From NCBI GenBank assembly GCA_947179485.1, contig OX359246.1, forward strand, positions 49,951,632 through 50,015,631: a stretch of DNA of 64,000 nt. Direction: 5' to 3'. Below, piece by piece: positions 3,467-54,160 of the stretch. The stretch is from Allacma fusca. Its lineage: Eukaryota; Arthropoda; Collembola; Symphypleona; Sminthuridae. Every line of letters begins with the position of its first letter. Position 1 is the stretch's first letter. Made by a program: the position numbers and the translations under genes. The notes beneath the pieces were generated by a model, which had not been told where the DNA came from, made no database searches, and was given only the letters and a program-made list of their open reading frames with translations.

Positions 3467-4312
3467 TAGAGCTACGTTTGGGATCGGGATACACCCGGGA
3501 ATTGGGTTCGGGATCGGGAACGGGTTCGAGTTCGGGTGTCTAATTAATGTTCCCAAATACTTTGGGACCAGGTTCAGGAACATGTTCAGCAGACCCGGGA
3601 TTTCGGGATCGGGAACGGGTTTGGGAACGGGTTCAAGCTTGATGAAGGTATTTGTGTTCCCGTCGGGAACCGGGAACATCTTCGTTCCCACACCCGTTAC
3701 ACGCTTCACGTTCCCGGGAACAACGCATCCATCTAGCGGAGAAAAAAATACAAAGCATGCACGGCTTCCCTCGTTAAAGTGTTGAGACGATAATTTTACA
3801 TAAGCGACTTGAGCGGTTTCGCACAAAGTCAGTTGGGATCGCATAGTAGTGATTTCCGCCTACTCTAACTTGCAAGATGAAAGTCCTTGCAAAACTCATA
3901 GTGGAAATCGTTTAAGCAGTCTTCCTGCAGGTTTTTCGGCAACGCAGAACAGACGTTTAGTTTGATGATCATTTTTAATAATGCCTAAATCTATTGTTGC
4001 ATGGTACGCATGCATAGGTATTGCTAAATCAATGAAAATGTGAAGAAAAAATTGATTTACACTAACGGCACTGGTCCCGGGAACGAGTCCGGGTTCAAGG
4101 GATTCGGGATCGCGATTGGGAGCAAATTGTATGTGATTTCGGGTTCGGGATCGGGTTTGAGATAAACGATTCAAGCATATTTAATATCTGGGTTTTTGTG
4201 CACCCGATCCCAGTATTTCGGGAACGGGTTCGGGTGTGAGTCCGAAAATCTTGATTACCCGATTTTCGGAATCGGGTTCGGGTCAAACTTTTCGTTCCTA
4301 CAAGTAGCTCTA
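3467..4312. mobile_element. hAT-like non-autonomous element G (846 bp)
   Basis: The inverted ends TAGAGCTAC are perfect over 9 bases and the duplication TATCAAAC is perfect (3459-3466 and 4313-4320). About 250 bp at each end are written almost entirely in the word TTCGGGA and its complement (GGGATCGGGAACGGG and similar), with opposite orientation preference at the two ends. The middle third is ordinary AT-rich sequence. No transposase is present. Confidence 0.93.
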
Positions 4313-4351
4313 TATCAAACATGTTCAGATTCTCGATACTGCATATCGTCG

Positions 4352-4440
4352 GCTAAATTCTAAAAGGTACCATTTTCATTTGCGAACCCGTTTAAAAAGC
4401 ATAGGTGGTAAAATGAAAATGGTACTTTTTCGAATTTAGC
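4352..4440. repeat. hairpin inside element H (28-bp arms)
   Basis: The arms at 4352-4379 and 4413-4440 are reverse complements at about 25 of 28 positions around a 33-base loop. A second hairpin follows directly. This could be a small MITE, a cruciform or a small-RNA precursor; the sequence does not decide. Confidence 0.8.
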
Positions 4441-4448
4441 CAACGACA

Positions 4449-4524
4449 TCGTCGTTGAAGAGGCGAAATGGTCTACGTGCGCATAATTTTTGCAGCACAG
4501 ACCATTTTGCCTCTTCAACAACGA
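4449..4524. repeat. hairpin of the GAAGAGGCAAAATGG family, copy 1
   Basis: The arms at 4449-4474 and 4499-4524 match at 24 of 26 positions around a 24-base loop. The same arm sequence recurs as a hairpin at 6265-6349, inside an unrelated element, so it is a dispersed family. Confidence 0.85.
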
Positions 4525-5179
4525 TATTTAAGATACACCGAAGGTGAAGGCCCACTCGATTTAATTTTCAGATACTAACTCCTTTTTAGAACAATTATTC
4601 CGAAAATACAGTTAATTACTAACAAATAAAAATTTCAAATTAATCTGTTACTTCATTAACAGTCAAAACGACGTAAAATATAATTATAATGGACTGACCT
4701 ATTCTACACATGTCTAATATGTAGTCTTTGAAGTGACTGTTTTAAAAGTTTTGTGTTCTAGAAGTCAAATAGAGTGAGCATTAGGTAGGTATTTTAGGGA
4801 AAGTATTGTATTTAAAATACAGTATTTTGTATTTGAGTATTTTCAATTTCCTACCATGTATTGTATTTTTATTTTAGCAATGTAACCTGAGGTATTTTAC
4901 TTTGTATTTTGTATTTTCCATATTGTTTTTCAGGTATTTTATTTTGTATTTTGTCATCGAAGACCAAGTATTTTGCATAGCTCTGCTAATTATTCAAATT
5001 TCATTGGTACTAACAATGTACAATATTATTAAGACAATTAAAATCCAAAAATTTGTACGGTGATTCAATCGTACGATAGAATGCTGAATTAAAATCAGAA
5101 AATGTTGATTTAAATCCAAAAAAATCCGATTTAAATCAAATTAATCCGATTTTTTTGATCAAAAAATTCAGCAACCCTG

Positions 5180-5694
5180 ATTAGAGCTAACGTGGAAAAC
5201 ACTGTATAATAAACTTACAATTCGTCTAAAACAGCAGATCTATATAACGCCATTATCTATCAGATTGATGGCCTGCACCTGTGCGGAGAAACCGCCGAAA
5301 AACCAGTAGATATCGAATGTAATGTAGTAATTGAATTGGTTACCATTATAGTACGGCCAAGCATTACACAATCAATTGAGTATGTTTTAGGAGATGGCGC
5401 AAGAACCCTCGAACCCGTGAAAACTGAGAAAGGGAACGAGTTTCTACGCAGGCTGTGCCTGTTCCCAGTGGGAATTGAAACAAAATGATGTTTTTGTTGA
5501 TGTGATGTGGAACAGTGGAAACTTTCCACTCTTGTTCCTGCTCCCAGTGACTGGGTCCATTTGAGAGTGATCTTGTTCCGTTGTTCCTAAACCCAAGAGA
5601 CCGAGGAACAAAATAATTGTGCCCGTACTGGTTCCAGAACCCGTTCCAATTACGATCGCTGAATATGTTGTAAAACCAGTAATTATGTGTGGGT
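5180..5694. other. GTTCC-word cluster without resolved ends
   Basis: The stretch 5400-5660 is dense in GGAAC/GTTCC and CCCAGTGGG words, like the subterminal regions of the hAT-like elements. I could not pair its ends, and K may have interrupted it. Open frames of 60-130 codons overlapping it on both strands are low-complexity by-products. Confidence 0.35.
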
Positions 5695-6536
5695 TAGGGT
5701 TGGCAAGTATCGCCAGTTTGTCAGTATCGGGAATATCGGAATCGGTAGAATGCAATTTTGCGATATTTGCGATAATATCGGGTATCGCCGATACTTTTTG
5801 CTGAAGTGAATTAGCACATGAAGTAAAAAGAGTTAACATCAACGGAACTAGCTATTAGCTTTGTCATTATATGAAAAATCTGAATGTTGTAATCAAGGGG
5901 CGATTACATGGAGAGCGAAGCTAGCATGCAAAATATTGAATTTTATACCTATATTACATCTAAGACAACCATTGTGGCTGTCATATGATGTTACTGAAAT
6001 TTTTAAAATACTTTCTACTTTTCTGGAAGTTTTTCAAACATGTGATTGTATGGCATCTATATAATATATGAGTGTTCAATTTTCTAATTTTTTAAAAATT
6101 CCTTTTTCAAAATTGTGAAAATTTTAAAATGGAGACTCAAGCTGCACATCTAGGGTTTATGTGAGACATTCTACGCTTGTTTAAAAATTGTTAATTGAAA
6201 AGTTCAAAAGTTTTTTCTTCTACAAGGTCTCGAATTGTATTGTTCTAAAAACAAAAGGTAGATAATGTCGTCGATGAAGAGGCAAAATGGTCTAAGTCCT
6301 GTACAAAAGCATGCGTACATACTTCATTTTGCCTCTTCAGCGACGGCATTCTTGCTTATGCACCCTTTTACATGGCTCGCGCAAAAGAAATATGCCAGAA
6401 AGTACTTGGAGTTTAAAATAATTTCCACTGGCGATACCCGATATTCTGGACATGATTGGCGATAAGTATCGCCACTAATATCGCACATATTTTTGGCGAT
6501 ATTTGCGATAATATCGTATCGCACTTGCCAACACTA
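5695..6536. mobile_element. hAT-like non-autonomous element K (842 bp)
   Basis: The ends TAGGGTTGGCAAGT and TAGTGTTGGCAAGT (right end read inward) differ at one base. The flanks GTGTGGGT (5687-5694) and GTGTGGAT (6537-6544) match at 7 of 8. The subterminal word is GCGATA/TATCGC, at 5700-5795 and 6425-6530. The interior carries a copy of the 25-bp-arm hairpin. Its ends and word resemble element L, so the two may share one transposase source. Confidence 0.85.
6265..6349. repeat. hairpin of the GAAGAGGCAAAATGG family, copy 2
   Basis: The arms at 6265-6289 and 6325-6349 are reverse complements at 23 of 25 positions around a 35-base loop. The arm sequence matches that at 4449-4524, but the loops differ, so the arms look more conserved than the loop. 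Confidence 0.82.
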
Positions 6537-7010
6537 GTGTGGATTGCACATACAGTTTAGAAATTAAGGTGCTATCTTTCACATGCTAGGTGTACATAAA
6601 CTCAATGAACATAATTATAACGACCATTGGGATTCTTCCTCGAATTTTGGACACAAACTCCAAGGCAGATTTGCTGGTGTGGAAAAAGTTCCAAATGGTC
6701 AACGATCCTGACAACAATAAATGGTCAACTAAACCGCCGGGGTAAGACGGCCAACTACCTGGGTATCGATATTTTTTGCCAAACTACCAAAACTTTTTGG
6801 TCAACTACCTGGGTAACCAAAACAATTTGGCCAAGTACCTGGGTAGTGGTCGGACCAATTCAGTTTAAATTGCAATTTTACAATTCAATTCAATTCAGTT
6901 CAATTCAATCCAGGGATTTTTCAATTCAATTCGACCGTTTACTGAATCGAATAATTCAATTCACCTGTTGAATCGAATTGTATTGTATTCTTTGAATTCC
7001 AATTCAAAAC

Positions 7011-7856
7011 AATTTCAGGCTAAATCAAAACCGATATTGTAAGGATAAGTTTAGCACCATCTTTGTGTCAATAAAACCAGAAATAAAACGTGTTAATATT
7101 TTTAGGGTGGCGTCAGCCCCCTTATAAGAAAGTGTTGTCCGTGGATGCTTGAGACTGTTTTCCTCCAAACCAATTTTGTTCACACTTTTTGTGAATATTC
7201 TTTAGGCCACTCTCTTGGAGTTCTTTATTAGTTGAAATCGTAATGCCTGTTCGTACGTAAAAAAAATAAAAACGACAAACTGCCCCACCGATTTCAATGG
7301 ATTTTTTTTACACTTACCAGTCAGTACTACTAGCCTAATTTTTTCAAAAATTATCAAAATTCTATTTTTTCAAAATTTTGCATTTTTTAAATGAGCTCAA
7401 CATGATACTATAAAAATCCGTGCACTGCACTGATTTGGGCAAACTTTGTTTGCATGTGCAGGAAAGTGAAACTTGTATTAAAAGATTGGGTAAGGTAGGG
7501 AAATTGATTTTTTCGTTGAAGGTATCATGTCCGTACGTCAATCCATTGGAAAGATATAGCAAATGCAAGATTTTGTATTCAGAAAATAATTTTCTGAGGT
7601 CAAACGGTTGATACCATGTCGCCGAAGTTATCAGAAGGCACAACTAGATTTTATGGCCGATATTTTGGTAAAGGTCACGTGTCCGTATGTCAATTCGTAG
7701 TAAAGATATGGCTACCACAAGATTTTGTAAAGTGACGGACGGACGGACGAAATACACTCGTGCATAAGAAAGTTTCACTTTCTAAAAAGGGTAAGGAGAG
7801 ATGATGGCCTTAGCTGACGTGCCACCCCAGCCACCTTTGCAGTATGCAAATATGCC
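7011..7856. other. interior of element E, non-coding
   Basis: No gene is visible. A weak direct repeat (GTCCGTACGTCAAT followed by AAGATAT) occurs near 7525-7575 and 7679-7730, and GACGGACGGACG lies at 7735-7748. A similar GTACGTCCGTGC stretch occurs inside element C near 8770. Its role is unknown. Confidence 0.4.
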
Positions 7857-8358
7857 CGGTGAACCAGAGATGTCCAAATGAAATTGCCTTCCTTCAAACC
7901 TTCGAAGGCAATTTTTTGAAAAAACTCATTCCTTCATCCTTCTATTAAAGGAAGCCTTCAAAATATTTTGCCTTCCTTCAGCCCTGTTTTACTTATTAAT
8001 TTAATGCCTCCAGCCTTCAGCCTTAAAAAAAATCAGCCTTCCTTCCTATTCAGCCTTCATAACACGAAATACCATAGCAATGCATTTAAACAACCCTTTT
8101 GCAGGTAAAACACCTGAAAATCAGCGATACAATTTACTCAATTGAGTTCGTTTATTAAAATCAGAAGCAATGAAGTAAGTCTGATTGTGCATATAACTGT
8201 ACATCATGCATTTGTAGCGTTTTTAGTACACTCTCATTGTTGTATTTGTAACTATCTATTGTAGTACATTGCAAGCGCGAAGCCTTCTAAGTAGCAGAGG
8301 GCTACTTTACATACTTCCTTCCTTCGCCTTCCGTTTTCTGATAATAATAGGAAGGCTC

Positions 8359-11300
8359 CACTGCTGCCCGCCAAGTTTTAATTCTATTCTATTCTATTCT
8401 GTTTACAACTAATTCTTGTATATTCAAGTCCTATTATATTCTGCTAAAGGTTTGGCGAGGCTATTCAAGTCTATTCCTATTCCAACAAAATTAGATAATT
8501 CCTATTCTATTCAAATTCTATTCATCAGCAATTAAAAACCGTGCGCTGAAAACTAGTGGATAAAACGCGCTGTATAAATATAACTACATTTTCTTTCACA
8601 ATTCCAATTTCCAGGTCCTTGAATTATAACTTGCTATTGACAATGATAATAAAATAACTGATATTTACCAAATTTACGAGCCACTTCCAGGCAGAAGAGA
8701 ATTAAACGGGCGTATAAATAACTACTTGTACTTAACAATTGGCAGTTAACAGGCCTGAATTAATACCCTTGTCTGTACGTCCGTGCGGTATCTCAAAAAC
8801 CGCTGCACGGATTTCAATGAAATTTATATTATAATTTTTTGAAAGAAATTCTGAAATTTAAAAAAAACTCAAAATTCGTCCTACTTCGCGGTAAGGGAGC
8901 GTCTACGAATTACGTCAGCTCGATAGTGGGTCCAACATTTAGTTGAAGTCTGACACGCAGGTGGATGGGTGCTGTATACGAGCGAATGACATTATTACTG
9001 TCATCACTCATCACCCTCATTTTATTACAAGGAGAGAATACGCACAAAAAATAAAATTGTATGGGATGGGATGACACCTCGAGTGTACAAATTAAATCTC
9101 TTTATGAAGTCGCATGTTTTCTCAGCTCGAAAATGTAGTTTCGCATATATTCTACAGTTCACTTGATTTTCGAGTGATTCAAGGAACGGCAATAAATGGC
9201 AACTTCTATCATTCTATGATTAGCATCAATGCCATAATAGAATCAATGCCAGATGTATTAATCGATGCTAGTGCCTGTCAGTAAGCAAACATTTTATGTA
9301 AGAATCAAGATAACGCATTAAAATGTCAAGCGCAAAAAACGATGGTGGATATCAGTGGCAAGTACTTCGTAAACTATGTTTACAACTATAACTAATGTTT
9401 ACAAAAAAGGATGAGTAGTTTTAAGTTTTTATTGATTATTGTAATCCTCTCATCAGTGCATCTCAAAGATGATCTACAAAGATTAACAACGCGACGGGAA
9501 AAAACAGCGACATGTCCATTGTATAAGTTATTACGAATAATAGTAACAATAATTCCTGACCACCTGACCCAGGACAAATCCAAACAGCAACGTATACAAT
9601 TCCGTTCAGTAAACTTGAGTTCGGATTTTAGAATGTCTTGTTATGTTTAATTACACATTAAGTACTTCCTTCAGACTCGTCTGATTTTAATATACGAATC
9701 AATTCACAGCTAAATTCGCTACTTTTAAATTTTGGGGCATTGTTCAATCGTAGCGTGTAAAGGTATGTGATGACATTTAGCAGGGTGTGTGGGTCCAAGT
9801 ATCACTAAATGACCATTTATGATTTGAGGGTGAGTGATTGGGTAATTAATGCATTTTGTGCTGATGTAATATGTAGACGCTCCCTAAGTGACGGCACCCT
9901 ACTCGCATTATCGCGTATCGATGATTTTTACACATGTAATCAAAGGGCTTTGGTTATTTTTTTTGTTTATGGCATTCTCAGATGCTCAGATTTGAATAAG
10001 AATTTCACTGTTTTTACTATTCAATTCTAATCTTGGCATCAGGTGCATATTCTATTCTATTCTAGTCTGGGAGTTTCAAAAATTGAGCTATTCAATTCAT
10101 AGATGGGCAATTTTCTCCCCCTCTGCCTCTTTGCGCGAGGGATAGAATATAGGCTGCTCGCACTCTCTCTCGCCATCAATCGAGCGACACGTTACGGGTT
10201 GTCCTCGTCCTCGCCCTCGTGAGGGGCTACTTTTAAAATACACCCCTCTCCCTCGCACTCGTGAGGGCCCTCGTTATTTTATATTGCACTTAAATAACCC
10301 CCCTACAATTTCCTACAATACTGTGCCTTCAAATAACGTTTTCGCGGACACTTGGTTAAAATATGACAACTTCAATGTGTGTTGACATTCCCCCCCAGTT
10401 CTGAACGTACGGAACTTTTGGATAGCTTAGAAAGTTTATAACAGTTCCTACAAACTAGCGGTCAAAACAATTTTTAAAACAATTTTTGTTGATATAAACT
10501 ACTGTATTCAAAATAGTACCCTTTATTGGTGTTGGTTTTACTCAGGTATTTGGGTACAGGTACGTATTAGGTTTCGTGGTTGACATAATGTAAAAAGTAT
10601 AAAAAACTTGAAAAAGTTACAATGTTTTTTCGATTTGGTCCCGAAAATAACGTAAAACACAAGTTTAAAATTCTAATTCATCGTTAAAAAGTGGCTATCT
10701 TCCTTATATTTTAACTGTCGGCAAAATGAAAAACATTCAGTAGTCAAACTACAATATTTTATTTGACATTTTTGTTTGTCTTTGACAATAATTCTTCATT
10801 ATAATCGAATCAGTAGTTCAGAAAATGACTATTATTGATCAAAACTGTTTTCTACGTCTCCGGTTAATAAAGATTAGTCACAAATAGGTTCCATAACCTC
10901 AGACCAGTAATATTTAATAGTAGGGTCTGAAAACAGCATTAATCAAATATAAAGCCCAGGTCTTGCTACAGAACAATATATGTATGATTTTCGCAAAACG
11001 ATTAAGGTAAGAGAAGGTCATGAGGGCTTACATGTGTACTCTGCCTCCCTCTCTTTCGTTCACATCCTGTTTATAGGTACTCTCCCTCATATTCATGAGG
11101 GCGCCTAAAATCAACGTGTACTCGCCATCACCCTCGCAGTTTGTGAGGGCGAGGACGAGGGAGAGGGCGAGGCATCCCTCAATCCCTCGTGAGGGTGCCC
11201 ATGTATGATTCAATTCTATTCAATTTATTTCTGTATAAACGGCAATTCTATTCAAATTCCTATTTTCCTATTCAAGTCGGAATAGAATAGGGCAGCAGTG
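8359..11300. mobile_element. hAT-like non-autonomous element C (host of A)
   Basis: The inverted ends CACTGCTGCCC are perfect over 11 bases and the duplication GAAGGCTC is perfect (8351-8358 and 11301-11308). The subterminal word is TTCTATTC, at 8380-8530 and 10045-11289 around the inserted element A. Without A it is about 1.82 kb. The stretch 8531-10040 is AT-rich, with several short open frames but no recognisable protein. Confidence 0.95.
10098..11207. mobile_element. hAT-like non-autonomous element A (1110 bp), copy of family A/B
   Basis: The ends CATAGATGGGC and CATACATGGGC (right end read inward) differ at one base. The duplication ATTCAATT is perfect (10090-10097 and 11208-11215), taken from the word array of host C. 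The word is CCCTCG/CGAGGG, at 10110-10280 and 11035-11195. The ends match element B at 52914-54152 in reverse orientation, while the middle differs. It is the innermost member of a five-level nest. Confidence 0.95.
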
Positions 11301-11634
11301 GAAGGCTCTCTTCAGTCTTCCCGAATTAAATCAGCCTTCCCGCCTTCCCTTCCCAACCATCTGGAAAATTGATATTCCACCTTCAATGAAGCCTTCATTG
11401 AAGGCTAGCCTTCGAAGGCTGGACATGTCTGCGGCGAACCAAATGGTTTACAATTCAGTTCAGTTCATATATAGTGAACTGAATTGAATTGAATTGTTTT
11501 TTACTGAACCGAATTGAAACCCAAATTTTAATCCAGTTCAGTGTTCGAGCTGGATTGAATTGTAAATTTTGAATTGAATTGTTCCGACCACTATACCTGG
11601 GTAGCATGAAAATTGTTTACCCAACTGACCATAG

Positions 11635-12252
11635 TGTCACGGTTAGAATCTGACATACATTCCCATAATGTATTTTACATTTAATAAATGGTCCTGAAGG
11701 ACTAGGTTCAAGGTTTATGATTAGAGGTTATGATATTTCCATAATGAATAAGGATATTTCGGATCTTTGTTAATTAGAATAAGGATCTGATTGGATTTGA
11801 GAAATGGCATCAGGTAAGGAAAGCCAATAGTAAGATGCCGTGTTGGAACTGCGATAAGGAGAAAAAGGTAACACTGAGGCTCGACTGTAAAGGAGAGCTA
11901 AGTGGGATTTTGGACTCAGGGCGATTAATACATTCGAAAAGCTCTTGAGAATTTGTATAGAAAAGTTTAGAAGTAATAGAAACATTAAATATTAAATACT
12001 GAAAATATAAATCTACTTCAAAGATACTTTCATATTTTATTCCAATTTTGATAATTGTGCTTTGCTACTCATTTCGTGATGTTACCCGTGTCGCAATAAG
12101 ACAGTACCAATCATATGTGCTTTACATCTGGAGTTACGTGTGACGACTCCCTTGGTTACATAATCTGACTTTACATCTGCATTAATCCTAAGGATCATTC
12201 CTTCATATAAATAACTTTAATTCAAAAGTAACCAAAAAACCAAAATGTCTCA
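11635..12252 (+). repeat. 5' LTR of the gypsy element
   Basis: It starts TGTCACGG and ends TGTCTCA, with TG...CA termini. A TATAAATA-like box lies near 12200 and an AATAAA near 11680. It is nearly identical to 21121-21738. An antisense frame of about 71 codons inside it is a by-product. Confidence 0.97.
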
Positions 12253-12253
12253 C

Positions 12254-12271
12254 TGGTGGAGGTGCGAAACC
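12254..12271 (+). promoter_or_regulatory. Putative primer binding site
   Basis: One base after the 5' LTR the sequence reads TGGTGGAGGTGCGAAACC, starting with the TGG expected to pair with a tRNA CCA end. I could not match it to a specific insect tRNA from memory. Confidence 0.6.
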
Positions 12272-12649
12272 GATTCCCGGGTTTTCTCACGAGGTGAAAA
12301 GTGCAATTTTTAAGAATCCTGAAAAGTTATAATTATATAAAAACTAATCTCACTTCATGGTAGCCATTTTGGACCATGCCGTTTTGATCTTCCACATAAG
12401 CCATCTCTTATCGGCGAACTTGATAAAACCTATTCAGTGATCCTTATCTCGTTTACATAGCGAATCTTAACTCATTACTCTATTGAAATATACGAACCTG
12501 TGTGCAGTGCACGCAGACCGAAATGCCAGCAACTCTTTACCTGTGCGAACATACGAAACTTTGTCTTTTGAATAGTAAAGTGCATTAGTTGCCAAATAAA
12601 CTCAAAATACTTCACTACATTTCTTCCATATTTGGGGTGCTCTAATACC

Positions 12650-14212
12650 ATGGCCGAGACATTAGACACAGCTAATGTTCCAGTGGATGTTCTTACCGGA
12701 GCCGCTGATGAGGACAACACAACGGACACCGCTGAGGAATTACGCTTGGCAGAAGAACAACTTGAATATTACGAAAGCAAACGCGAGGCAGAACAAGACA
12801 ACATTCGTCGTTTACGGGGGAAAATGACATGCAATGTGGACCCACAGACTACAACTGCACAGCCTACAGCACACACATCAACTACAATGGGCCGTAACGA
12901 TCCACCCAAGACGAAAGTTCCGTTTGTACATCGTATGGGATCATCACTATTCGGTAATATTTACACCACGCAGAGGCGACCGTCTAAAGCTCCTGAGGAT
13001 GCGAAACAGTCTTCCACTGACACGCTGACACACATTCAGAGGAATCAGAAACTTTTTAAGGTACTCAAAGAACGTATTTTACCGTATGATGTTAAGGTAG
13101 ACGCGTCAGTTTGGCAAAATAATTTTCAGCAAGAATGCGATGATTTAGAAATAGACAACAATTTCCTAGTACCACTCTTGCATTGTTTCTTCAAAACTTC
13201 CAAATCAAAAATAGTAGTTGCTTGGTTTGAGAGCATGGAAAGTACTATTCAGACCTGGCGTACAGATCTACACTCTATGGAAATCTTGAACAGATTTAGC
13301 GAACAATTTGTAGCTCATTTCAAAAATGATAAAAGAGAGGAAGTCGCACAGAAAGCATGGGACAAATATGTCTTTGATGAGAAGAAACCAATTAGTACTT
13401 TCGTCATCGAAGCATGCGACCTATTATCACAAATTGACGGCACCTTCACTGAACGAAAGAAAATCAGCCACATGATTAGAAAAATTCCTTATGAGTTCGC
13501 GAGATTCATCTTTGATCCAGATCGAGCCAATTTGTCCGTCTTTTCGGCAAGGCTTCAGAGCATTGTTGAGGGAGAATGTGAATTAACACAGAAAAATGCA
13601 AAGGCATCTTTACCAACTGTATCTATTCCATCCACACTTCCTAAGGAAGAAAAGAAAATTGACAAGAAAGCCAATGAGCCTAAAGAGGAAACATCCAAGG
13701 TTCGCCATTTTAAAGAAACTTGTCAATATTGTAACAAAAAGGGGCATACTGCAACAACTTGCTATCAGATTAATAGTAACCCTTATGAAGGAAATTTCAA
13801 CAACAACCGAGGAGGATTTACTCCTAGAGGAGGTTCTTCTCGGGGCAATTTCACTCACCGAGGCCAAGGGCGTGGTGCTAACAGCACCCAACAACATGAA
13901 TCAAGGACGTATTACAACAGTAATCAAAATTTCCAAGGAAATAATTATCGCGGGTTTGATAATCAAACGAGACGAGGTTTCAACAGAGGTTACAATCGTG
14001 GTGGTTACCAAAACAATAATCAGAATTTCTACAACAATAATGGTCGAGGTTATAATCACAACAATAATTTCCCAAGAAACAACCAACAGCACAATTCAAG
14101 CAATGATCGTCAATTGTTGACTTCCGTCCTCGCCCTGATGGGTAATCCAGCTCAGCGCTCTCAGAATTTACAAGAGAATTCTGCGAACACTCATCCCAAT
14201 GCTTTAAATTAA
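12650..14212 (+). CDS. Gag polyprotein of the gypsy element
   Basis: The frame encodes 520 residues from the ATG at 12650, which sits in a good initiation context (ACCATGG). Gag forms the particle that packages element RNA. The N-terminal 65 residues are acidic with a probable coiled coil. A capsid-like central region follows (about residues 130-310). A CCHC zinc knuckle with C358, C361, H366 and C371 (CQYCNKKGHTATTC) then precedes a long Asn/Gly/Arg-rich RGG-type tail likely to bind RNA. The stop TAA at 14210 directly follows a T TTA AAT slippery heptamer, so part of the product should continue into Pol. The open frame extends six codons upstream without an ATG. Confidence 0.95.
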   Translation: MAETLDTANVPVDVLTGAADEDNTTDTAEELRLAEEQLEYYESKREAEQDNIRRLRGKMTCNVDPQTTTAQPTAHTSTTMGRNDPPKTKVPFVHRMGSSLFGNIYTTQRRPSKAPEDAKQSSTDTLTHIQRNQKLFKVLKERILPYDVKVDASVWQNNFQQECDDLEIDNNFLVPLLHCFFKTSKSKIVVAWFESMESTIQTWRTDLHSMEILNRFSEQFVAHFKNDKREEVAQKAWDKYVFDEKKPISTFVIEACDLLSQIDGTFTERKKISHMIRKIPYEFARFIFDPDRANLSVFSARLQSIVEGECELTQKNAKASLPTVSIPSTLPKEEKKIDKKANEPKEETSKVRHFKETCQYCNKKGHTATTCYQINSNPYEGNFNNNRGGFTPRGGSSRGNFTHRGQGRGANSTQQHESRTYYNSNQNFQGNNYRGFDNQTRRGFNRGYNRGGYQNNNQNFYNNNGRGYNHNNNFPRNNQQHNSSNDRQLLTSVLALMGNPAQRSQNLQENSANTHPNALN

Positions 14213-14240
14213 TAAGTCAGTTGTTACGGGACAAACTGAC
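14203..14240 (+). promoter_or_regulatory. Predicted -1 ribosomal frameshift site with stem-loop
   Basis: The heptamer T TTA AAT (14203-14209) lies in the gag frame in the X XXY YYZ pattern and abuts the gag stop. Six bases later a perfect 7-bp stem forms between GTCAGTT (14216-14222) and AACTGAC (14234-14240) with an 11-base loop. Slipping back one base enters the pol frame directly. This spacing and layout are those of known -1 frameshift signals. Its use in vivo is inferred. Confidence 0.8.
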
Positions 14241-17200
14241 GAAGAATTCAACTGTAAATAATGTAAATACTACTCAGACTACAAGCAAGCCTACTTCACA
14301 TAATACAAATATTCAACAACAAAAAAATTCAAGTCTTCCTAAGGAAGTACATATAAAGAAAATTCAACAACATATTCCTAGTGAGGATTCAATGTCCCTC
14401 ACATACACAGCAACTCACTCACAATCATCCTCCGCACTTAGTGCAGATTATCATAATCTTTTAAGAACACAAGCTAATGCTACTGATCTCTTATGGGATT
14501 TACATATTTTTGGCAAACGCAACTTCCACGTTCAAGCTATTATTGATAATGGGGGAGGTATTTCCACCATCTCTAAATCATGCGTATATGAAATACAGAA
14601 GAATAGTCCTGAGGGAATCAAAGTACTTCAACATCAACCTAAAGCTATATGTCAAGTTACGAACAATTCTACTGTTCATTATCATCAAACAGCAATTCTA
14701 CATTATTACATCAATGGCCAACTCCATTCACATAATTTTGTCATCCTTCCCAATGCAAACACAGTATTACTCTTAGGGGGAAATTTTCTCCGTAAACATC
14801 ATGCGACGCTTACATTCGACCCCGATTCGGTAACATTCAACAATAATTTTGAGGAAAAGTTGGAGGGCACTGTTACGGAACGGTCTCAGTGCCTGCCTTC
14901 CGAGTACTCTTCTTCGGAAGATTCACCGTCTCTAACGAGCGCATCTTCACAGTTGCCGAACGTCCGTAGAATGATATGTGTCCGGTCTACTCGTCCTTAC
15001 GAGCTGTTACCTCGCTCGTGGACCAGAGTAGATCTCTTCAACGACAGCAAATACACCGGAAACGTAATAATTTCACCAATTAGAAAACACAGACAAGATT
15101 TATTTTTTGGAGATACTATTTGTCCAATGGACGATGGAAGAACTTACAGTTTAGTTTGGAATCCATCCAAACATACAACAATATTACAACCCTTACGCAG
15201 ATTCGGAAATATTGATCATTTCAACGGAGTTGATGTCACTCCAAACGTTCCTAAGGAAGAAATTCCCAAGACTACTTTCAAGAAACTTTCACCACTTTCA
15301 CTGACGGATTGCAAATTTGGTCCTACACTTACTCCTAACCAGAAACAACAAATCTTATCAACAATCAACAAGTACAGAAACTGCTTTGCAAAAGATGACA
15401 CGGAATTTGGTTGCATTAATTATAAATATGTCACCATTGACACGGGAGATACCAAACCTGTGTATACTCCCCAATATAGATTATCATTTACTGAACAAGA
15501 GCAATTACGCAACTTGGTTAATCAACATATTGAACAAGGTATTGTTTCTCCTTGTGACTCACCATGGAATAATCCTGTACTCCTGGTTAAGAAAGCTGAT
15601 GGTACTCCCAGATACGTACTTGACCTAAGGAAATTTAACCCGAACGTTGTGAAGAATACTTACCCATTACCAATTCCACAAGATCAATTTGACAGACTTT
15701 ATGGCGCAAGATGGTTTATATCTCTAGACGCGATTCAAGGATTTTTGCAACGTATGCTCGACGCTAAATCCAGATTAAAAATGGCATTTACTACTAATGA
15801 TGGAAAGTTCTGTATGAACAGACTTCCTTTTGGATATAGAAATTCACCGGGGGAATTCCAGCAGATGATGGACGATATCTTAGGGGCATTAAGATATTCC
15901 ATTGTACTCGTATACATTGATGACGTTTTAGTATACGCTGGAACCTTTGAGGAGTTATTACGAAGATTTGAACTAGTATTACAACGTGCTAAACTATTTG
16001 GTCTGACTTTTAAACTCAAGAAATGTTGTTTTGGTTTTCAAGAAATTGAATTCCTAGGGTTATTAATCAATGCTGAAGGCAAACAACCTATAGACACCAA
16101 ACTTGAACCCATTATGAACATGGACCCTTCAAAGAGTATTAAATCCCTAAGGAGTTTCTTAGGAATGACCGAATGGTACAGACAATTCATAGCTGATTAT
16201 GCGAAAATAGCCAAACCACTCAATGATTTGAAGAAAGCAGCTGTAAAATTTACCTGGACTGAGGAATGCGACGAAGCCGTAAGAAAATTAAAGAAAGCGC
16301 TTGTATCAGCTCCTGTACTACAATTCTTTAATCCAGATGCAGACTTATACTTATACACAGACGCTAGTGCCTATGGTATTGGCGCTATTTTACATCAAAG
16401 TACAGATGGAAAGAATATCCATCCTATTCACTATGCATCACGGGCATTAACAGAAGCAGAACAGAAATGGGACGCAAGAGAGCGAGAATGTCTAGCTATC
16501 GTTTGGGGACTAGAGAAATTTCGCCAGTATGTGTACGGAAAAATGGTACACATACGAACGGATCACCACAGCTTGCAACATATAATGACTCTCAAAGATC
16601 CTCATAATCGCATAGCCAGATGGACTATGAAACTCGCAGCTCAACCTATGTCAGTTCAACATGTTCCTGGAAATAAGAATGCACACGCAGATTGCTTATC
16701 ACGTGAAATTATTCGCAGACTTTCCAATACCTTACTAGACAGCACACACGTTGAAGTTGGACAAGAAGACAGAGCTATTATGACAACAACAGGTGGAAAT
16801 TCTGAATTATTCCAACAGAAACAGACAGAAGATGAGAAATTACAAACAATAATTAAAAAGCTTATTAAGGAAGGAGATCACCAGAGTGACCCTCCGCATG
16901 TATTTGGTAAAAATTACGCACTTATACATGGACTTCTGTACAGAGTCGACCAAGGTCTCACTGCTAACCCTTGGAGGCTAGTCATTCCCAGATCCCTAAG
17001 GAATGACATAATGCATCTTTTCCACACCGATCCTGAAGGAGGCCATGCTGGCATTTATAAAACTTTCTCAGCTTTATACTCACGATATTATTGGATGAAT
17101 ATGTTCCGCGATGTGCATAAGTACTTACAATCCTGCGAAACATGCCAAATGCATAATCCCAGAAATACTGCAAATATGGGACACAGACACACGATTCCAC

Positions 17201-20200
17201 CACCTTCTAAACCTTTACAACGTATTGCTTTAGATTGGATTGGTCCACTTCCAACATCTCCTAAAGGAAACAAGTATGCACTCATCATGATTGACTGTAC
17301 AACTCGATATGTTTTTGCTGGCGCATCTAGAACTCACACTTCCAATGATTCACTCAGAATTTTAAAAAATGTAATCATTAATAACCATCATTTTCCACGA
17401 GAGGTATTAACAGATGGTGGCCCACACTTTGCTCACGGAGAATTTCCCGAATGGCTGAAAGCTAATGGAATTAAACACCATATTGTCATGCCTAACAGTC
17501 CACAAAGTATGGGTATAGTGGAGCGTCAAAACAAATCATTAAAGACATTTATCAAGAAATATATTGAAAAGGAAACATCATACGCTAAATGGGATTCATT
17601 ACTACCTTTGGCTGTGCGTGCTCATAATTTTCATGTTAATGAAGGCACAAACTACTCACCATACTTTCTTTTTCATGGAAGAGATCCACTCACAAGATTA
17701 GATTTACTTACCCCAGTTTTAATCTCAGACATTACTCTTTCCCCTGAGGAGACAGCAGAGAATCTCAAGAATGCAACTCAAGATGCAATACAAGTCACAA
17801 TTCAAGACCAACAGAAAAGAGACGCAAAATTCAATGCTAACCGCAAAGATCATGTGTACTTAGTTGGAGATTTTATCAAATTGAAGGATCAGAATCCACA
17901 TCAATTGGGACCAAAATGGATTGGCCCATATGAAATTATCAAAGTCATTTCACCACAATCTTTTGAGGTTAAACCAGTACTACTTACCATGGGCAATAAA
18001 ACAAGAAATGTACATATCCATAACATCGCTCCTTATATACAGCCTGAAGCATGGACTGCTGAATTTCCTTTAATTATCCCTGAGGGATTGTCAAATAGAA
18101 ATCTGAGTATCACTGCATCAGCTGGATCTGTTCTTATGGAACAAGACGTATTTCACCAACCCATAAACTATCATCACACTGAAACTACTTTATTTCGTCA
18201 GCCGAATTGTTCTAACTCTACTGATAGTAGTGTAGCCCGAGATCACATTAGTGAGGTGAGGGATAGCCTCATGACCTATCCCACAGCTCCGAATATGTCT
18301 TCCCCTCAACATCATACACGAAGTTCTGCTCAAGAGGAAGTGCACGCCTCAGGAAGTAGAAATCTGAATGCAAGAACTAATACTTCATATTACTCTTCAT
18401 CTTTAGAATCAGCAAGACAGATACATATTCCTCAAAATAATTTCCGACAAAGTATGATAGCGACAAATATAACACCTTTTAATCCAGATACACGCACTGA
18501 TAGAATTTTCTATAGGACACAAGATCAAGAGCTGGCCACTCCTTGTCCTCCTAGGGAAAACATTAATAATATTACAAGATCAAGTGAAACTAACTCAGGT
18601 CCTTACATGAATACTCGCAGTAGACGTCCTGTGAGAGAAATTTTAGAATTACCCGTTACTACGAGACCAAGAAGAAGACTTAATCCAGATACGATTGCTC
18701 CGCCACAGTTGTTCGATAACCGACCTGTCAGAGTCAACGATCCAGATGAATCAACTTCAAGTCCTGTTGTGAATTTTAATATCAATATCAACCCAAATGC
18801 ACAGATAATGAATGAATTTAATGTAAACACAAATGACGAAATCGTTCATAATACTAATAATTATCCTGAAGGAAATGCAAATATGGAAGCTTTAGATAAT
18901 GTTATTCCACAAATTAATGTTGGACTTACTAATATTACACAATCACATCATATTTATACTATGCCTGAACCGTCTCATACTGAAAGAGTTATTATGCAAA
19001 TAGAAGATGTACAATCACAACCAGATTCAGATATTGGAATTCAAGAAATAAATACTAATGAAGATGGAAACTCACACCAAATTGAGAATGACAATACTGA
19101 CCACAGTATAGCAGCTATACAAGAAATTATGGAAGCTCAGAATGACATATATGGTACTTTGCCAATCAGATCTACAGTACAACCACAACAAAGAAACCCT
19201 ATTTTCCCTATCGCTCAAATGGATTTATTCGGAAACTTTCAACGAATTCATCCTGAGGTACAAGATATGGAAAACTTTATTCCAGCGACAGACTTTTTCT
19301 CAAATTACCGTGAACAATCACGTGTTTCTTCTAACAATTCTTCTGAGGGAAGTCACATCAGTTCCGTCGAAAGTGACATTGTAGCTTACAATAATCCAGA
19401 TTCTTCAAGATTTGCTCAAGATCAAATGCTAACGAGAAACGAACCTGCTATTCAAGACGCAATGAATGAATATCTTGCTGCACAAGACCGCTCAAGATTA
19501 TCTATCCTTTCAATTATCAGTGATATACGAGAACATATCTCAGACACTTCAATCTCAAGTGATAGTCAGGAATTTTTAAACTTACCTTCGACTTCAACTC
19601 CCATAAGTACTGCTGCAACATATAGAAATGTTGATCACGAACTCATCCTAGAGGAAAATCATATTCAGCTGTCCACACAACTTGACAGTCTATTTGAATC
19701 CAGTCAATTATCTGATAGTAATGAACACGATGTTATAACCACATGCAAAAGTTATGAACACGAACCCGTTACAATTAACCACTTATATAGATCCTTCCCA
19801 AATATTATTTTTGACAAAATTGAAAAAATATTAATTAAAGAAAGACACAATGTTTTCCTAAAGGAACTGAATTTAAATGCAGACTATTATGAACAATCAC
19901 TTAATATTTTTTCTCCAGTTTTTTCTTCTACCATGGAACTACGCTATTCAAAAATGTTACAGTTGTCAACCCGTGAAAGTGACACTCCTACGCAACAAGT
20001 AGATATGTACACTTCGCAAAGATTAAATCCTGCAATTCCTATTTTTCACCCTACAAATGTTACTCCTGTACACACTTCCGTTAATGACACTCACAAACGT
20101 CCTAAAGTTCCTAAGAGAAAATTAAAAACTCCTAAAGTCACAGTTAATAATTTAATTCCTACAGGAAAAGTTCAAAAAGCTACAACCAAATTACCACAAA

Positions 20201-20703
20201 AAGAAATATCATCTTACCCAACGGTTGATCCAGAAACTGTTCAATACACATACAAAGGTATGGTTAAGAAATGTCGTATTAGAATAGAACCAGAAGCTTG
20301 TAAAGCATTACCAGTCAAAGTCAATGTACATACATTAGAGGAAGTATCTACTGTAAACCCTGTAATTACAATACCTGCTGTTAAAACTCTAGTAGATATC
20401 CGCAAGCGCTTAGACCGTAAAAGAATATTTAGTGCTCCAGTCAGGAACATTGAAGATACACCGCATACAAGTAAGAAGACAGCACATTGCCCATCACAAC
20501 CCGTAGTGTTGGGTGATGGGGAGGTTTTTGAGGCCGCGTTGCCAAGTCAGGAGTCGGAGACTTTGACAAAGAAGAGACGTCTCTCTGCCACAGGAGAATC
20601 GTTAGCTCTTCTCAGGCAAGCCACACGTTTTGATGGAGACGAAGTTTTACAACGTCCAAAGCGTCGTGCTGCAGTCAAGCCACAAGAATTTTACAAAGAA
20701 TAA
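14203..20703 (+). CDS. Pol polyprotein of the gypsy element with long C-terminal tail
   Basis: The frame is open for about 2160 codons and has no early ATG, consistent with entry by -1 frameshift. Residues below are counted from 14221. A retropepsin-like protease has an unusual active-site DNGG (109-112) in place of the common DTG or DSG. Reverse transcriptase carries YIDD at 565-568 and RNase H has D714. Integrase has an HHCC zinc region (about 930-976) and a catalytic triad near D1005, D1065 and E1101 with 35 residues between the last two. A GPY/F module (LGPKWIGPYEII) follows at about 1229. Residues from about 1290 to 2160 are a Ser/Asn/Gln-rich tail with basic clusters (KRPKVPKRK, KKRR, RPKRR) and no known domain. 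The stop is followed by a run of A. Confidence 0.96.
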   Translation, partial: FKLISQLLRDKLTKNSTVNNVNTTQTTSKPTSHNTNIQQQKNSSLPKEVHIKKIQQHIPSEDSMSLTYTATHSQSSSALSADYHNLLRTQANATDLLWDLHIFGKRNFHVQAIIDNGGGISTISKSCVYEIQKNSPEGIKVLQHQPKAICQVTNNSTVHYHQTAILHYYINGQLHSHNFVILPNANTVLLLGGNFLRKHHATLTFDPDSVTFNNNFEEKLEGTVTERSQCLPSEYSSSEDSPSLTSASSQLPNVRRMICVRSTRPYELLPRSWTRVDLFNDSKYTGNVIISPIRKHRQDLFFGDTICPMDDGRTYSLVWNPSKHTTILQPLRRFGNIDHFNGVDVTPNVPKEEIPKTTFKKLSPLSLTDCKFGPTLTPNQKQQILSTINKYRNCFAKDDTEFGCINYKYVTIDTGDTKPVYTPQYRLSFTEQEQLRNLVNQHIEQGIVSPCDSPWNNPVLLVKKADGTPRYVLDLRKFNPNVVKNTYPLPIPQDQFDRLYGARWFISLDAIQGFLQRMLDAKSRLKMAFTTNDGKFCMNRLPFGYRNSPGEFQQMMDDILGALRYSIVLVYIDDVLVYAGTFEELLRRFELVLQRAKLFGLTFKLKKCCFGFQEIEFLGLLINAEGKQPIDTKLEPIMNMDPSKSIKSLRSFLGMTEWYRQFIADYAKIAKPLNDLKKAAVKFTWTEECDEAVRKLKKALVSAPVLQFFNPDADLYLYTDASAYGIGAILHQSTDGKNIHPIHYASRALTEAEQKWDARERECLAIVWGLEKFRQYVYGKMVHIRTDHHSLQHIMTLKDPHNRIARWTMKLAAQPMSVQHVPGNKNAHADCLSREIIRRLSNTLLDSTHVEVGQEDRAIMTTTGGNSELFQQKQTEDEKLQTIIKKLIKEGDHQSDPPHVFGKNYALIHGLLYRVDQGLTANPWRLVIPRSLRNDIMHLFHTDPEGGHAGIYKTFSALYSRYYWMNMFRDVHKYLQSCETCQMHNPRNTANMGHRHTIPPPSKPLQRIALDWIGPLPTSPKGNKYALIMIDCTTRYVFAGASRTHTSNDSLRILKNVIINNHHFPREVLTDGGPHFAHGEFPEWLKANGIKHHIVMPNSPQSMGIVERQNKSLKTFIKKYIEKETSYAKWDSLLPLAVRAHNFHVNEGTNYSPYFLFHGRDPLTRLDLLTPVLISDITLSPEETAENLKNATQDAIQVTIQDQQKRDAKFNANRKDHVYLVGDFIKLKDQNPHQLGPKWIGPYEIIKVISPQSFEVKPVLLTMGNKTRNVHIHNIAPYIQPEAWTAEFPLIIPEGLSNRNLSITASAGSVLMEQDVFHQPINYHHTETTLFRQPNCSNSTDSSVARDHISEVRDSLMTYPTAPNMSSPQHHTRSSAQEEVHASGSRNLNARTNTSYYSSSLESARQIHIPQNNFRQSMIATNITPFNPDTRTDRIFYRTQDQELATPCPPRENINNITRSSETNSGPYMNTRSRRPVREILELPVTTRPRRRLNPDTIAPPQLFDNRPVRVNDPDESTSSPVVNFNININPNAQIMNEFNVNTNDEIVHNTNNYPEGNANMEALDNVIPQINVGLTNITQSHHIYTMPEPSHTERVIMQIEDVQSQPDSDIGIQEINTNEDGNSHQIENDNTDHSIAAIQEIMEAQNDIYGTLPIRSTVQPQQRNPIFPIAQMDLFGNFQRIHPEVQDMENFIPATDFFSNYREQSRVSSNNSSEGSHISSVESDIVAYNNPDSSRFAQDQMLTRNEPAIQDAMNEYLAAQDRSRLSILSIISDIREHISDTSISSDSQEFLNLPSTSTPISTAATYRNVDHELILEENHIQLSTQLDSLFESSQLSDSNEHDVITTCKSYEHEPVTINHLYRSFPNIIFDKIEKILIKERHNVFLKELNLNADYYEQSLNIFSPVFSSTMELRYSKMLQLSTRESDTPTQQVDMYTSQRLNPAIPIFHPTNVTPVHTSVNDTHKRPKVPKRKLKTPKVTVNNLIPTGKVQKATTKLPQKEISSYPTVDPETVQYTYKGMVKKCRIRIEPEACKALPVKVNVHTLEEVSTVNPVITIPAVKTLVDIRKRLDRKRIFSAPVRNIEDTPHTSKKTAHCPSQPVVLGDGEVFEAALPSQESETLTKKRRLSATGESLALLRQATRFDGDEVLQRPKRRAAVKPQEFYKE

Positions 20704-21110
20704 AAAAAAAAAAAAAACTATTCTTTCCTCCAGTTGTCATTTTCATGTAAATTAGGTAACACCTTTGCTTATGTCGTGCTTGTAATAGTTGAAAATATTA
20801 TTTAATTAATACTTATTTAATTAATATACTTAATAATTACTTATTATTACTAAATTTTGTCAAGATTTGTTTTTAAAATCTCTGATTCATAGTTTTAAGT
20901 TTTTTTTTTCTGTTTCGTTTACACTAATTTTTGTTTCTCTCCTAAGGAAATAATTATGATTTACGTTAATTATATCTCTTATTTACATCGACTTATTTAC
21001 TGATCTAAAAATACGAATGAATGTTTGTATACCTACACATTTTTTTTTCTCTTCAATGACCACACTTCTATTTTTGTCACATTGGATTTCGGGGTCGAAA
21101 TCTTCTGTAC

Positions 21111-21120
21111 GTAGGGGGTG
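21111..21120 (+). promoter_or_regulatory. Polypurine tract of the gypsy element
   Basis: GTAGGGGGTG lies immediately before the 3' LTR, where plus-strand DNA priming is expected. It is short and interrupted by T. Confidence 0.65.
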
Positions 21121-21738
21121 TGTCACGGTTAGAATCTGACATACATTCCCATAATGTATTTTACATTTAATAAATGGTCCTGAAGGACTAGGTTCAAGGT
21201 TTATGATTAGAGGTTATGATATTTCCATAATGAATAAGGATATTTCGGATCTTTGTTAATTAGAATAAGGATCTGATTGGATTTGAGAAATGGCATCAGG
21301 TAAGGAAAGCCAATAGTAAGATGCCGTGTTGGAACTGCGATAAGGAGAAAAAGGTAACACTGAGGCTCGACTGTAAAGGAGAGCTAAGTGGGATTTTGGA
21401 CTCAGGGCGATTAATACATTCGAAAAGCTCTTGAGAATTTGTATAGAAAAGTTTAGAAGTAATAGAAACATTAAATATTAAATACTGAAAATATAAATCT
21501 ACTTCAAAGATACTTTCATATTTTATTCCAATTTTGATAATTGTGCTTTGCTACTCATTTCGTGATGTTACCCGTGTCGCAATAAGACAGTACCAATCAT
21601 ATGTGCTTTACATCTGGAGTTACGTGTCACGACTCCCTTGGTTACATAATCTGACTTTACATCTGCATTAATCCTAAGGATCATTCCTTCATATAAATAA
21701 CTTTAATTCAAAAGTAACCAAAAAACCAAAATGTCTCA
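21121..21738 (+). repeat. 3' LTR of the gypsy element
   Basis: The 618 bp match the 5' LTR except for C instead of G at 21628. ATAG follows as the target duplication. Confidence 0.97.
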
Positions 21739-22092
21739 ATAGTTTTTGGTCAACTACCTGGGTAACCAAAACAATTTGGCCAAGTACCTGGGTAGCATGA
21801 AAATTGTTTACCCAACCGACAATAATGTTTGGCCAGCTACCTGGGTAGCGACAAAATTGTTTGCCCAACTACCAAAAATTTTTGGTCAACTCTGGGTATC
21901 GAAAAAAAGTTTTGCCCAACTACCAAAAATTGTTTGCCAACTACCTGGATAGCGAAAAAGATTTTGGTCAAATAACCCGGCAGTGGTTTTGAAAATGGCC
22001 AACTATCCCGCCGTTCAATGTTGCCCAACTACTTTGGCCCATTTTGTCAACGATCCCGGATCGCAGGATCGGGAACTTTTTCCACACCGCTG

Positions 22093-22538
22093 ATTTGCTT
22101 CTCGAGTTTCTTTAACCCTATAATTCCTAAGCTTTTTAGGGTGCTACTATTCCTAAGCCGTGGACAGGCTGGCCACATGTTAAATCAAAGGGCCCGTAAC
22201 AAATTAGGTAGCCTATTTAGGCGGCACAATTTTAACAGCTTTGGGGCTGCAACGGAAGGATAATCGTCGTTAAAATTCATTATTTATGTAAATAATACAT
22301 ATAAAATAAGTATAATATAATATTATTATATTATAAATATACTACATATATATTTTTATTTAGTTTATACATATTATTATTTTAGCGTTCTCCTTTGGTT
22401 GCTATAAATATATATAGATACATATAATTTTAGTTATATATATATATACAATACATACAAACTAAATATAAATATATTATATACATAAAATAATATATAT
22501 TTATGTATTTTTAGTTTTGTATATATATAATACATACA
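22093..22538. other. Right flank of element F, non-coding
   Basis: The stretch 22100-22262 is ordinary sequence with no recognised feature. From 22262 it becomes AT-rich (TATA-type simple sequence) and leads into the 51-bp array. The same stretch recurs at 29587-30025. Confidence 0.5.
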
Positions 22539-22539
22539 A

Positions 22540-23047
22540 ACTAAATATAAATATATAATCTTTTATATATATATATTTATATATATATGTAAACTAAATA
22601 TATAATCTTTTATATATATATATATATTTATATATATATGTAAACTAAATATATAATCTTTTATATATATATATATATTTATATATATATGTAAACTAAA
22701 TATATAATCTTTTATATATATATATATATTTATATATATATGTAAACTAAATATATAATCTTTTATATATATATATATATTTATATATATATGTAAACTA
22801 AATATATAATCTTTTATATATATATATATATTTATATATATATGTAAACTAAATATATAATCTTTTATATATATATATATATTTATATATATATGTAAAC
22901 TAAATATATAATCTTTTATATATATATATATATTTATATATATATGTAAACTAAATATATAATCTTTTATATATATATATATATTTATATATATATGTAA
23001 ACTAAATATATAATCTTTTATATATATATATATATTTATATATATAT
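22540..23047. repeat. 51-bp AT-rich tandem array
   Basis: The unit contains TAAACTAAATATATAATC followed by TA dinucleotides. The GT of each unit falls at 22589, 22640, 22691 and every 51 bp up to 23048, giving nine regular intervals. Units look identical. The array ends exactly at the duplication junction. Confidence 0.95.
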
Positions 23048-26000
23048 GTGACTCACCATGGAATAATCCTGTACTCCTGGTTAAGAAAGCTGATGGTACT
23101 CCCAGATACGTACTTGACCTAAGGAAATTTAACCCGAACGTTGTGAAGAATACTTACCCATTACCAATTCCACAAGATCAATTTGACAGACTTTATGGCG
23201 CAAGATGGTTTATATCTCTAGACGCGATTCAAGGATTTTTGCAACGTATGCTCGACGCTAAATCCAGATTAAAAATGGCATTTACTACTAATGATGGAAA
23301 GTTCTGTATGAACAGACTTCCTTTTGGATATAGAAATTCACCGGGGGAATTCCAGCAGATGATGGACGATATCTTAGGGGCATTAAGATATTCCATTGTA
23401 CTCGTATACATTGATGACGTTTTAGTATACGCTGGAACCTTTGAGGAGTTATTACGAAGATTTGAACTAGTATTACAACGTGCTAAACTATTTGGTCTGA
23501 CTTTTAAACTCAAGAAATGTTGTTTTGGTTTTCAAGAAATTGAATTCCTAGGGTTATTAATCAATGCTGAAGGCAAACAACCTATAGACACCAAACTTGA
23601 ACCCATTATGAACATGGACCCTTCAAAGAGTATTAAATCCCTAAGGAGTTTCTTAGGAATGACCGAATGGTACAGACAATTCATAGCTGATTATGCGAAA
23701 ATAGCCAAACCACTCAATGATTTGAAGAAAGCAGCTGTAAAATTTACCTGGACTGAGGAATGCGACGAAGCCGTAAGAAAATTAAAGAAAGCGCTTGTAT
23801 CAGCTCCTGTACTACAATTCTTTAATCCAGATGCAGACTTATACTTATACACAGACGCTAGTGCCTATGGTATTGGCGCTATTTTACATCAAAGTACAGA
23901 TGGAAAGAATATCCATCCTATTCACTATGCATCACGGGCATTAACAGAAGCAGAACAGAAATGGGACGCAAGAGAGCGAGAATGTCTAGCTATCGTTTGG
24001 GGACTAGAGAAATTTCGCCAGTATGTGTACGGAAAAATGGTACACATACGAACGGATCACCACAGCTTGCAACATATAATGACTCTCAAAGATCCTCATA
24101 ATCGCATAGCCAGATGGACTATGAAACTCGCAGCTCAACCTATGTCAGTTCAACATGTTCCTGGAAATAAGAATGCACACGCAGATTGCTTATCACGTGA
24201 AATTATTCGCAGACTTTCCAATACCTTACTAGACAGCACACACGTTGAAGTTGGACAAGAAGACAGAGCTATTATGACAACAACAGGTGGAAATTCTGAA
24301 TTATTCCAACAGAAACAGACAGAAGATGAGAAATTACAAACAATAATTAAAAAGCTTATTAAGGAAGGAGATCACCAGAGTGACCCTCCGCATGTATTTG
24401 GTAAAAATTACGCACTTATACATGGACTTCTGTACAGAGTCGACCAAGGTCTCACTGCTAACCCTTGGAGGCTAGTCATTCCCAGATCCCTAAGGAATGA
24501 CATAATGCATCTTTTCCACACCGATCCTGAAGGAGGCCATGCTGGCATTTATAAAACTTTCTCAGCTTTATACTCACGATATTATTGGATGAATATGTTC
24601 CGCGATGTGCATAAGTACTTACAATCCTGCGAAACATGCCAAATGCATAATCCCAGAAATACTGCAAATATGGGACACAGACACACGATTCCACCACCTT
24701 CTAAACCTTTACAACGTATTGCTTTAGATTGGATTGGTCCACTTCCAACATCTCCTAAAGGAAACAAGTATGCACTCATCATGATTGACTGTACAACTCG
24801 ATATGTTTTTGCTGGCGCATCTAGAACTCACACTTCCAATGATTCACTCAGAATTTTAAAAAATGTAATCATTAATAACCATCATTTTCCACGAGAGGTA
24901 TTAACAGATGGTGGCCCACACTTTGCTCACGGAGAATTTCCCGAATGGCTGAAAGCTAATGGAATTAAACACCATATTGTCATGCCTAACAGTCCACAAA
25001 GTATGGGTATAGTGGAGCGTCAAAACAAATCATTAAAGACATTTATCAAGAAATATATTGAAAAGGAAACATCATACGCTAAATGGGATTCATTACTACC
25101 TTTGGCTGTGCGTGCTCATAATTTTCATGTTAATGAAGGCACAAACTACTCACCATACTTTCTTTTTCATGGAAGAGATCCACTCACAAGATTAGATTTA
25201 CTTACCCCAGTTTTAATCTCAGACATTACTCTTTCCCCTGAGGAGACAGCAGAGAATCTCAAGAATGCAACTCAAGATGCAATACAAGTCACAATTCAAG
25301 ACCAACAGAAAAGAGACGCAAAATTCAATGCTAACCGCAAAGATCATGTGTACTTAGTTGGAGATTTTATCAAATTGAAGGATCAGAATCCACATCAATT
25401 GGGACCAAAATGGATTGGCCCATATGAAATTATCAAAGTCATTTCACCACAATCTTTTGAGGTTAAACCAGTACTACTTACCATGGGCAATAAAACAAGA
25501 AATGTACATATCCATAACATCGCTCCTTATATACAGCCTGAAGCATGGACTGCTGAATTTCCTTTAATTATCCCTGAGGGATTGTCAAATAGAAATCTGA
25601 GTATCACTGCATCAGCTGGATCTGTTCTTATGGAACAAGACGTATTTCACCAACCCATAAACTATCATCACACTGAAACTACTTTATTTCGTCAGCCGAA
25701 TTGTTCTAACTCTACTGATAGTAGTGTAGCCCGAGATCACATTAGTGAGGTGAGGGATAGCCTCATGACCTATCCCACAGCTCCGAATATGTCTTCCCCT
25801 CAACATCATACACGAAGTTCTGCTCAAGAGGAAGTGCACGCCTCAGGAAGTAGAAATCTGAATGCAAGAACTAATACTTCATATTACTCTTCATCTTTAG
25901 AATCAGCAAGACAGATACATATTCCTCAAAATAATTTCCGACAAAGTATGATAGCGACAAATATAACACCTTTTAATCCAGATACACGCACTGATAGAAT

Positions 26001-28197: not shown

Positions 28198-28614
28198 AAA
28201 AAAAAAAAAAACTATTCTTTCCTCCAGTTGTCATTTTCATGTAAATTAGGTAACACCTTTGCTTATGTCGTGCTTGTAATAGTTGAAAATATTATTTAAT
28301 TAATACTTATTTAATTAATATACTTAATAATTACTTATTATTACTAAATTTTGTCAAGATTTGTTTTTAAAATCTCTGATTCATAGTTTTAAGTTTTTTT
28401 TTTCTGTTTCGTTTACACTAATTTTTGTTTCTCTCCTAAGGAAATAATTATGATTTACGTTAATTATATCTCTTATTTACATCGACTTATTTACTGATCT
28501 AAAAATACGAATGAATGTTTGTATACCTACACATTTTTTTTTCTCTTCAATGACCACACTTCTATTTTTGTCACATTGGATTTCGGGGTCGAAATCTTCT
28601 GTACGTAGGGGGTG

Positions 28615-54152: not shown

Positions 54153-54160
54153 CCTCAGAC

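Follow-up and report, generated by a model that had tools for sequence, protein, structure and literature searches.

Transposons nested one inside another are a known kind of arrangement, and the locus described here, a nest of insertions in a 64,000-nucleotide stretch of the springtail Allacma fusca (assembly GCA_947179485.1, contig OX359246.1, positions 49,951,632 to 50,015,631; the whole stretch is called the window), is an ordinary instance of this well-known pattern. In nested transposable element clusters as resolved by REANNOTATE, containment gives the order of insertion, as it does here, and the identity of long terminal repeats (LTRs) dates a retrotransposon and sets a limit on the age of its hosts (PMC2672092). 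Compared with those clusters, the Allacma nest consists mostly of short elements with 8-bp duplications, and its order was checked by empty sites. The elements that we call A, C, D, E, and F resemble hAT elements and their miniature inverted-repeat relatives (MITEs) in having 8-bp target duplications and short terminal inverted repeats (PMC3942097). We regard the five as candidate hAT-like elements from their duplications and ends. P and other superfamilies also give 8-bp duplications; the CAGAG start of D is one that we take to be typical of hAT. The retrotransposon of the nest shares with Ty3/gypsy elements (Metaviridae) the order protease, reverse transcriptase (RT), RNase H, and integrase, LTRs of the form TG..CA, and a 4-bp duplication, and it differs from them in about 850 codons past the integrase (18160-20700) that have no Pfam match at 0.01.

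Edges, target duplications, and empty sites

The nest almost certainly formed by successive landings of transposons at one spot, in the order F, E, D, C, A (Table 1), a reading supported by edges and duplications in other copies and by unoccupied sites. The ends, duplications, containment, and empty sites are observed; the enzymes involved and all times of landing we infer. The first-pass annotation had already read the region as a nest of six insertions laid down like strata in this order. The outcomes that it named as refuting this reading, namely no other copies, copies ending at other bases, or copies lacking the duplications, were checked with results in its favor. Other genomic copies confirm the nest and all six members, containment and empty sites support the order, and the duplications quoted for A, C, D, E, and the gypsy element are all present in the window. 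The members are in fact eight, B and H having been overlooked. The claim that the gypsy element came after F also stands, and nesting fixes nothing about its age relative to E, D, C, and A.

Table 1. Components of the nest, with positions in the window
Feature	Position	Strand	Ends	Target duplication	Remarks
F	6674-22089	.		CAGATTTG 6666-6673 / CTGATTTG 22090-22097	outermost, oldest
E	6844-11593	.	TAGTGGTCGGA	TACCTGGG 6836-6843 / 11594-11601	
E empty site	21737-21824	+			F repeat unit; 84/88 positions match joined E flanks
H	7417-7783	.		AAAAA 7412-7416 / 7784-7788	in E; missed by first-pass annotation
D	7865-11431	.	CAGAGATGTCCA / CAGACATGTCCA	CGGTGAAC 7857-7864 / CGGCGAAC 11432-11439	
C	8359-11300	.	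CACTGCTGCCC	GAAGGCTC 8351-8358 / 11301-11308	
B	8895-9884	.	GGGAGCGTCTAC	TAA 8892-8894 / 9885-9887	within C; missed by first-pass annotation
A	10098-11207	.	CATAGATGGGCA / CATACATGGGCA	ATTCAATT 10090-10097 / 11208-11215	
Ty3/gypsy LTR retrotransposon	11635-21738	+		ATAG 11631-11634 / 21739-21742	
gypsy LTRs	11635-12252 and 21121-21738				618 bp
gypsy gag-position open reading frame	12650-14209	+			520 codons; no Pfam match at 0.01
gypsy pol open reading frame	14221-20703	+			weak protease match, RT, RNase H, integrase

Other copies were sought in the genome to which the window belongs (393 Mb, 91 contigs); each search scored 40 of 220-1263 candidates, and the copy numbers given here are lower bounds. 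For A, C, D, E, F, and the gypsy element alike, the edges recur across the genome, almost every match breaking off at the same bases. Matches to A start at window positions 10090-10098 in 38 of 39 cases (one at 10012), those to C at 8357-8359 in 38 of 39 (one at 8343), and those to D at 7858-7865 in 39 of 39. All 39 other copies of E start at 11432-11434, the D edge, and finish at 11592-11599, around the E end at 11593, and one extra 67-base piece matches a different part of the query. For F, all 38 other matches break off at 22088-22095 (33 at 22088), and 22 of 23 other LTR matches of the gypsy element end at 21738-21741, with one at 21750. The left part of A has a best other copy 96% identical over 203 bases, among the 40 scored of 495 candidates.

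Many fetched copies of A, C, D, E, and F carry an 8-bp target duplication. It is exact in 6 of 7 A copies, 9 of 13 long C copies, 14 of 29 D loci (with 4 more within 2 mismatches), and 7 of 11 E copies (with 1 more showing one mismatch, in a G run); with the short form of C, 8 of 29 loci had an exact duplication and a ninth came within 2 mismatches, and many of these stretches fall short of the right end. Other gypsy LTR pairs have an exact 4-bp duplication in 6 of 6 cases. Among 13 stretches with F (numbered, like all fetched stretches, with an L), the duplication is exact in L097 and L103, has one mismatch in L094, is seen over 7/8 bases in L096, and is unclear in L106; the remaining 8 lack the left end.

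Sites with a single copy of the duplication, which the first-pass annotation had proposed to look for, exist elsewhere in the genome for A in C, C in D, and D in E and within the window itself for E and the gypsy element in F. The A site in C aligned well in 21 of 42 stretches, with a single ATTCAATT in 18, one base off in 2, and gapped in 1. A single GAAGGCTT marks the C site in 18 of 29 D loci, 3 others aligning poorly (a 19-base gap) and 8 not being aligned over the site. Both nest copies of this duplication end in C, not T, and the D copy of the nest was therefore probably mutated before C landed. Eleven of 12 E loci span the D site with one copy (7 CGGCGAAC, 3 TGGCGAAC, and 1 TGGAGAAC); because 7 of the 11 read CGGCGAAC, the left duplication copy CGGTGAAC is probably the mutated one. 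For the gypsy element, the joined flanks with their two ATAG copies, aligned to the next repeat unit of F, leave a gap of exactly 4 bases.

Chance was weighed with a scan of positions 4000-24000 for 12-bp inverted ends with 8-bp repeats, the ends lying 150-6000 bases apart, a span that F exceeds. Of the 47 hits that it returned, 41 fall within an AT-rich minisatellite; the other 6 are A, C, D, E, the neighboring element G, and a weak AATT-rich hit that looks like chance. The 12-base inverted ends agree at 11/12 bases in A, C, D, and E alike. Three hits (A, C, and E) have at most one mismatch in total, as against none in 8 shuffles, which yielded 0-9 weaker hits apiece; among 391,659 random pairs of 8-mers drawn from 5-24 kb, 28 are identical and 323 have no more than one mismatch. 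If the duplications were chance repeats and the blocks rearranged fragments, not insertions, the 11 occurrences of TACCTGGG and 15 of ATTCAATT in the window would be in keeping with it. The E duplication by itself is indeed weak evidence, because TACCTGGG belongs to F's own repeat, and E rests on its ends, its copies elsewhere, and its empty site. However, the contrast with the shuffles, the edges matched in other copies, and the empty sites make that explanation extremely improbable.

A number of observations weigh against successive insertion. The duplication was not found at 11 of 29 D loci or in 3 of 11 E copies, and no clean one was present in 4 of 13 long C copies, 1 of 7 fetched A copies, or 9 of 13 F stretches, these last mostly for want of the left end in the stretch. 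At the A site 21 of 42 stretches did not align well, and 11 of 29 D stretches were not well aligned over the C site. The F copy of the nest has worn terminal bases and a mismatched duplication, and 12 of the closest F matches sit in a larger repeat where the free end of F is not shown. The divergence of A, taken up below, is also out of order.

Composition and assembly of the nest

Under the favored order, F would land first, leaving an 8-bp duplication, and E would then enter one internal repeat of F. H and D would go next into E, a C copy already bearing B into D, and A into C, and the gypsy element, with both LTRs, would independently enter F 41 bp beyond the E end. The small elements were presumably mobilized by transposases made elsewhere, as their inverted ends and short frames suggest; between 6674 and 11630 no overlapping open frame exceeds 116 codons, stop to stop, the frames not having been scanned with profiles.

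Some elements might instead have arrived as ready-made composites. This holds for B: because it sits at the same base in long C copies elsewhere, B came as a passenger of C, and its site is a single TAA in all six short C copies printed. As a general account of the nest it is very unlikely, since A is missing in 21 aligned C copies, C in 18 D copies, and D in 11 E copies. We regard B as a candidate PIF/Harbinger element from its short inverted ends and its 3-bp duplication; TAA on both sides agrees with the TWA duplication of that group. The C and B composite means that a transposon can acquire another and still spread. Two C copies (L034 and L035) have about 980 bp at the B position that are unlike B, and a larger form of C was seen in L070, L071, and L075, the frames of L075 all being short (at most 93 codons). 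In L033 the end of C abuts A at base 5, resembling C inside A; the far side was not found in L129. H is absent from the E copies L067 and L048 and unmatched in L107-L116, and a second H copy, in L014, is likewise flanked by AAAAA.

The interior of F contains repeats of about 50 bp (TACCTGGGTAG...). Its ends in other copies read CGGGTGTGGAAAAAGTTCC (19 bases); in the nest they are worn, the left end reading CTGGTGTGG and the right end being one base short. The ATTTGCT first proposed as the F duplication is offset: in other copies of F a CG lies outside GGTGTGG, and this extra CG reframes the ends and the duplication to those in Table 1. In L082-L093 the F-end sequence lies in a larger repeat, with the flank CGGTTGGGGTCACACT common to 12 of 12 stretches.

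A Pfam scan that covered the pol frame of the gypsy element from 14437 onward, split into five segments, placed RVT_1 (4.8e-23) and RT_RNaseH (3.2e-36) before Integrase_H2C2 (1.4e-20) and rve (2.8e-13) in one frame; the protease match (0.004) falls under the Pfam cutoff. This domain order and the paired LTRs with their fixed 4-bp duplication identify a Ty3/gypsy element. Because its LTRs are nearly identical (1 difference in 618 sites), the insertion appears to be late.

The right half of the nest is itself repeated: positions 15553-22531 and 23047-30025 form a direct duplication of 6979 bp without a mismatch, the junction falling where a 51-bp AT-rich minisatellite (22548-23049) ends. Among the 40 candidates scored, none but these two places matches the duplicated flank past F, and the repeat may have arisen by recent tandem duplication or through an error of assembly. 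That the layout is partly an assembly artefact, with the right half repeated and a 2.1-kb array following, is quite conceivable, if somewhat short of probable, given the 100% identity and the junction at the minisatellite. Such an artefact, however, would start within the gypsy pol and touch the 3' half of that element and the right end of F, leaving A to E untouched, and the first copy has matched duplications on both sides.

Divergence and nesting order

The first-pass annotation had also suggested comparing family divergences as a test of the deduced order. Differences found in no other sampled copy number 10/736 in E, 8/617 in D, and 10/1813 in C, so that C stands below E and D, which are alike, in agreement with the order of insertion. 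A fails this comparison with 42/1108, where about 6 would be expected at C's rate, and family divergence was therefore rejected as a test of order. Divergence from the majority of other copies is likewise 4.3% for A, 0.8% for long C, and 2.5% for D. The 42 private differences are spread along A (19 transitions and 23 transversions). Other copies of the family have 1 to 43 private differences, with a median of 3.4% off the majority, and the nest A is unexceptional within its family.

Since A lies inside C, most of its differences must predate its landing, provided that C kept its own record; gene conversion of C would be a further conceivable account of the discrepancy. Either cut-and-paste transposition relocated an old copy, or the source lineage of A lies outside the nine sampled copies. 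We tentatively entertain, without calling it probable, that A was old and had already diverged when cut-and-paste carried it whole into a young C. In that case, family divergence does not date the residence of a DNA transposon, host C would serve as an internal clock for the offset, and B riding in an amplifying C would be a second such case. The divergence shortcut can mislead here, as the small element that is youngest by containment holds the most private differences, and the locus offers a clean, checkable case of dating by nesting. A second A-family copy lies in the window at about 52.9-54.2 kb (about 52900-54160) on the minus strand, with GTCTGAGG on both sides.

Co-occurrence and neighborhood

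The first-pass annotation called so many families in a short interval unusual, a view that the genome does not support: at 13 of 78 non-self loci scanned, at least two of the elements A, C, D, E, and G occur together. These 78 correspond to 65 places (13 fetched twice), B inside C is not counted, one of the 13 qualifies through G alone, and two are the same place. Element G lies outside F at 5695-6536, with ends TAGGGTTGGCAA/TAGTGTTGGCAA and an 8-bp duplication GTGTGGGT/GTGTGGAT. Beyond the repeated half, at positions 30431-42303, a 2141-bp unit with two CDK12-like kinase exons is repeated about 5.5 times in tandem; its copies are 99.8-99.98% identical, and the array is either a real amplification or an assembly error. 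An exon adjoining the nest matches CDK12.

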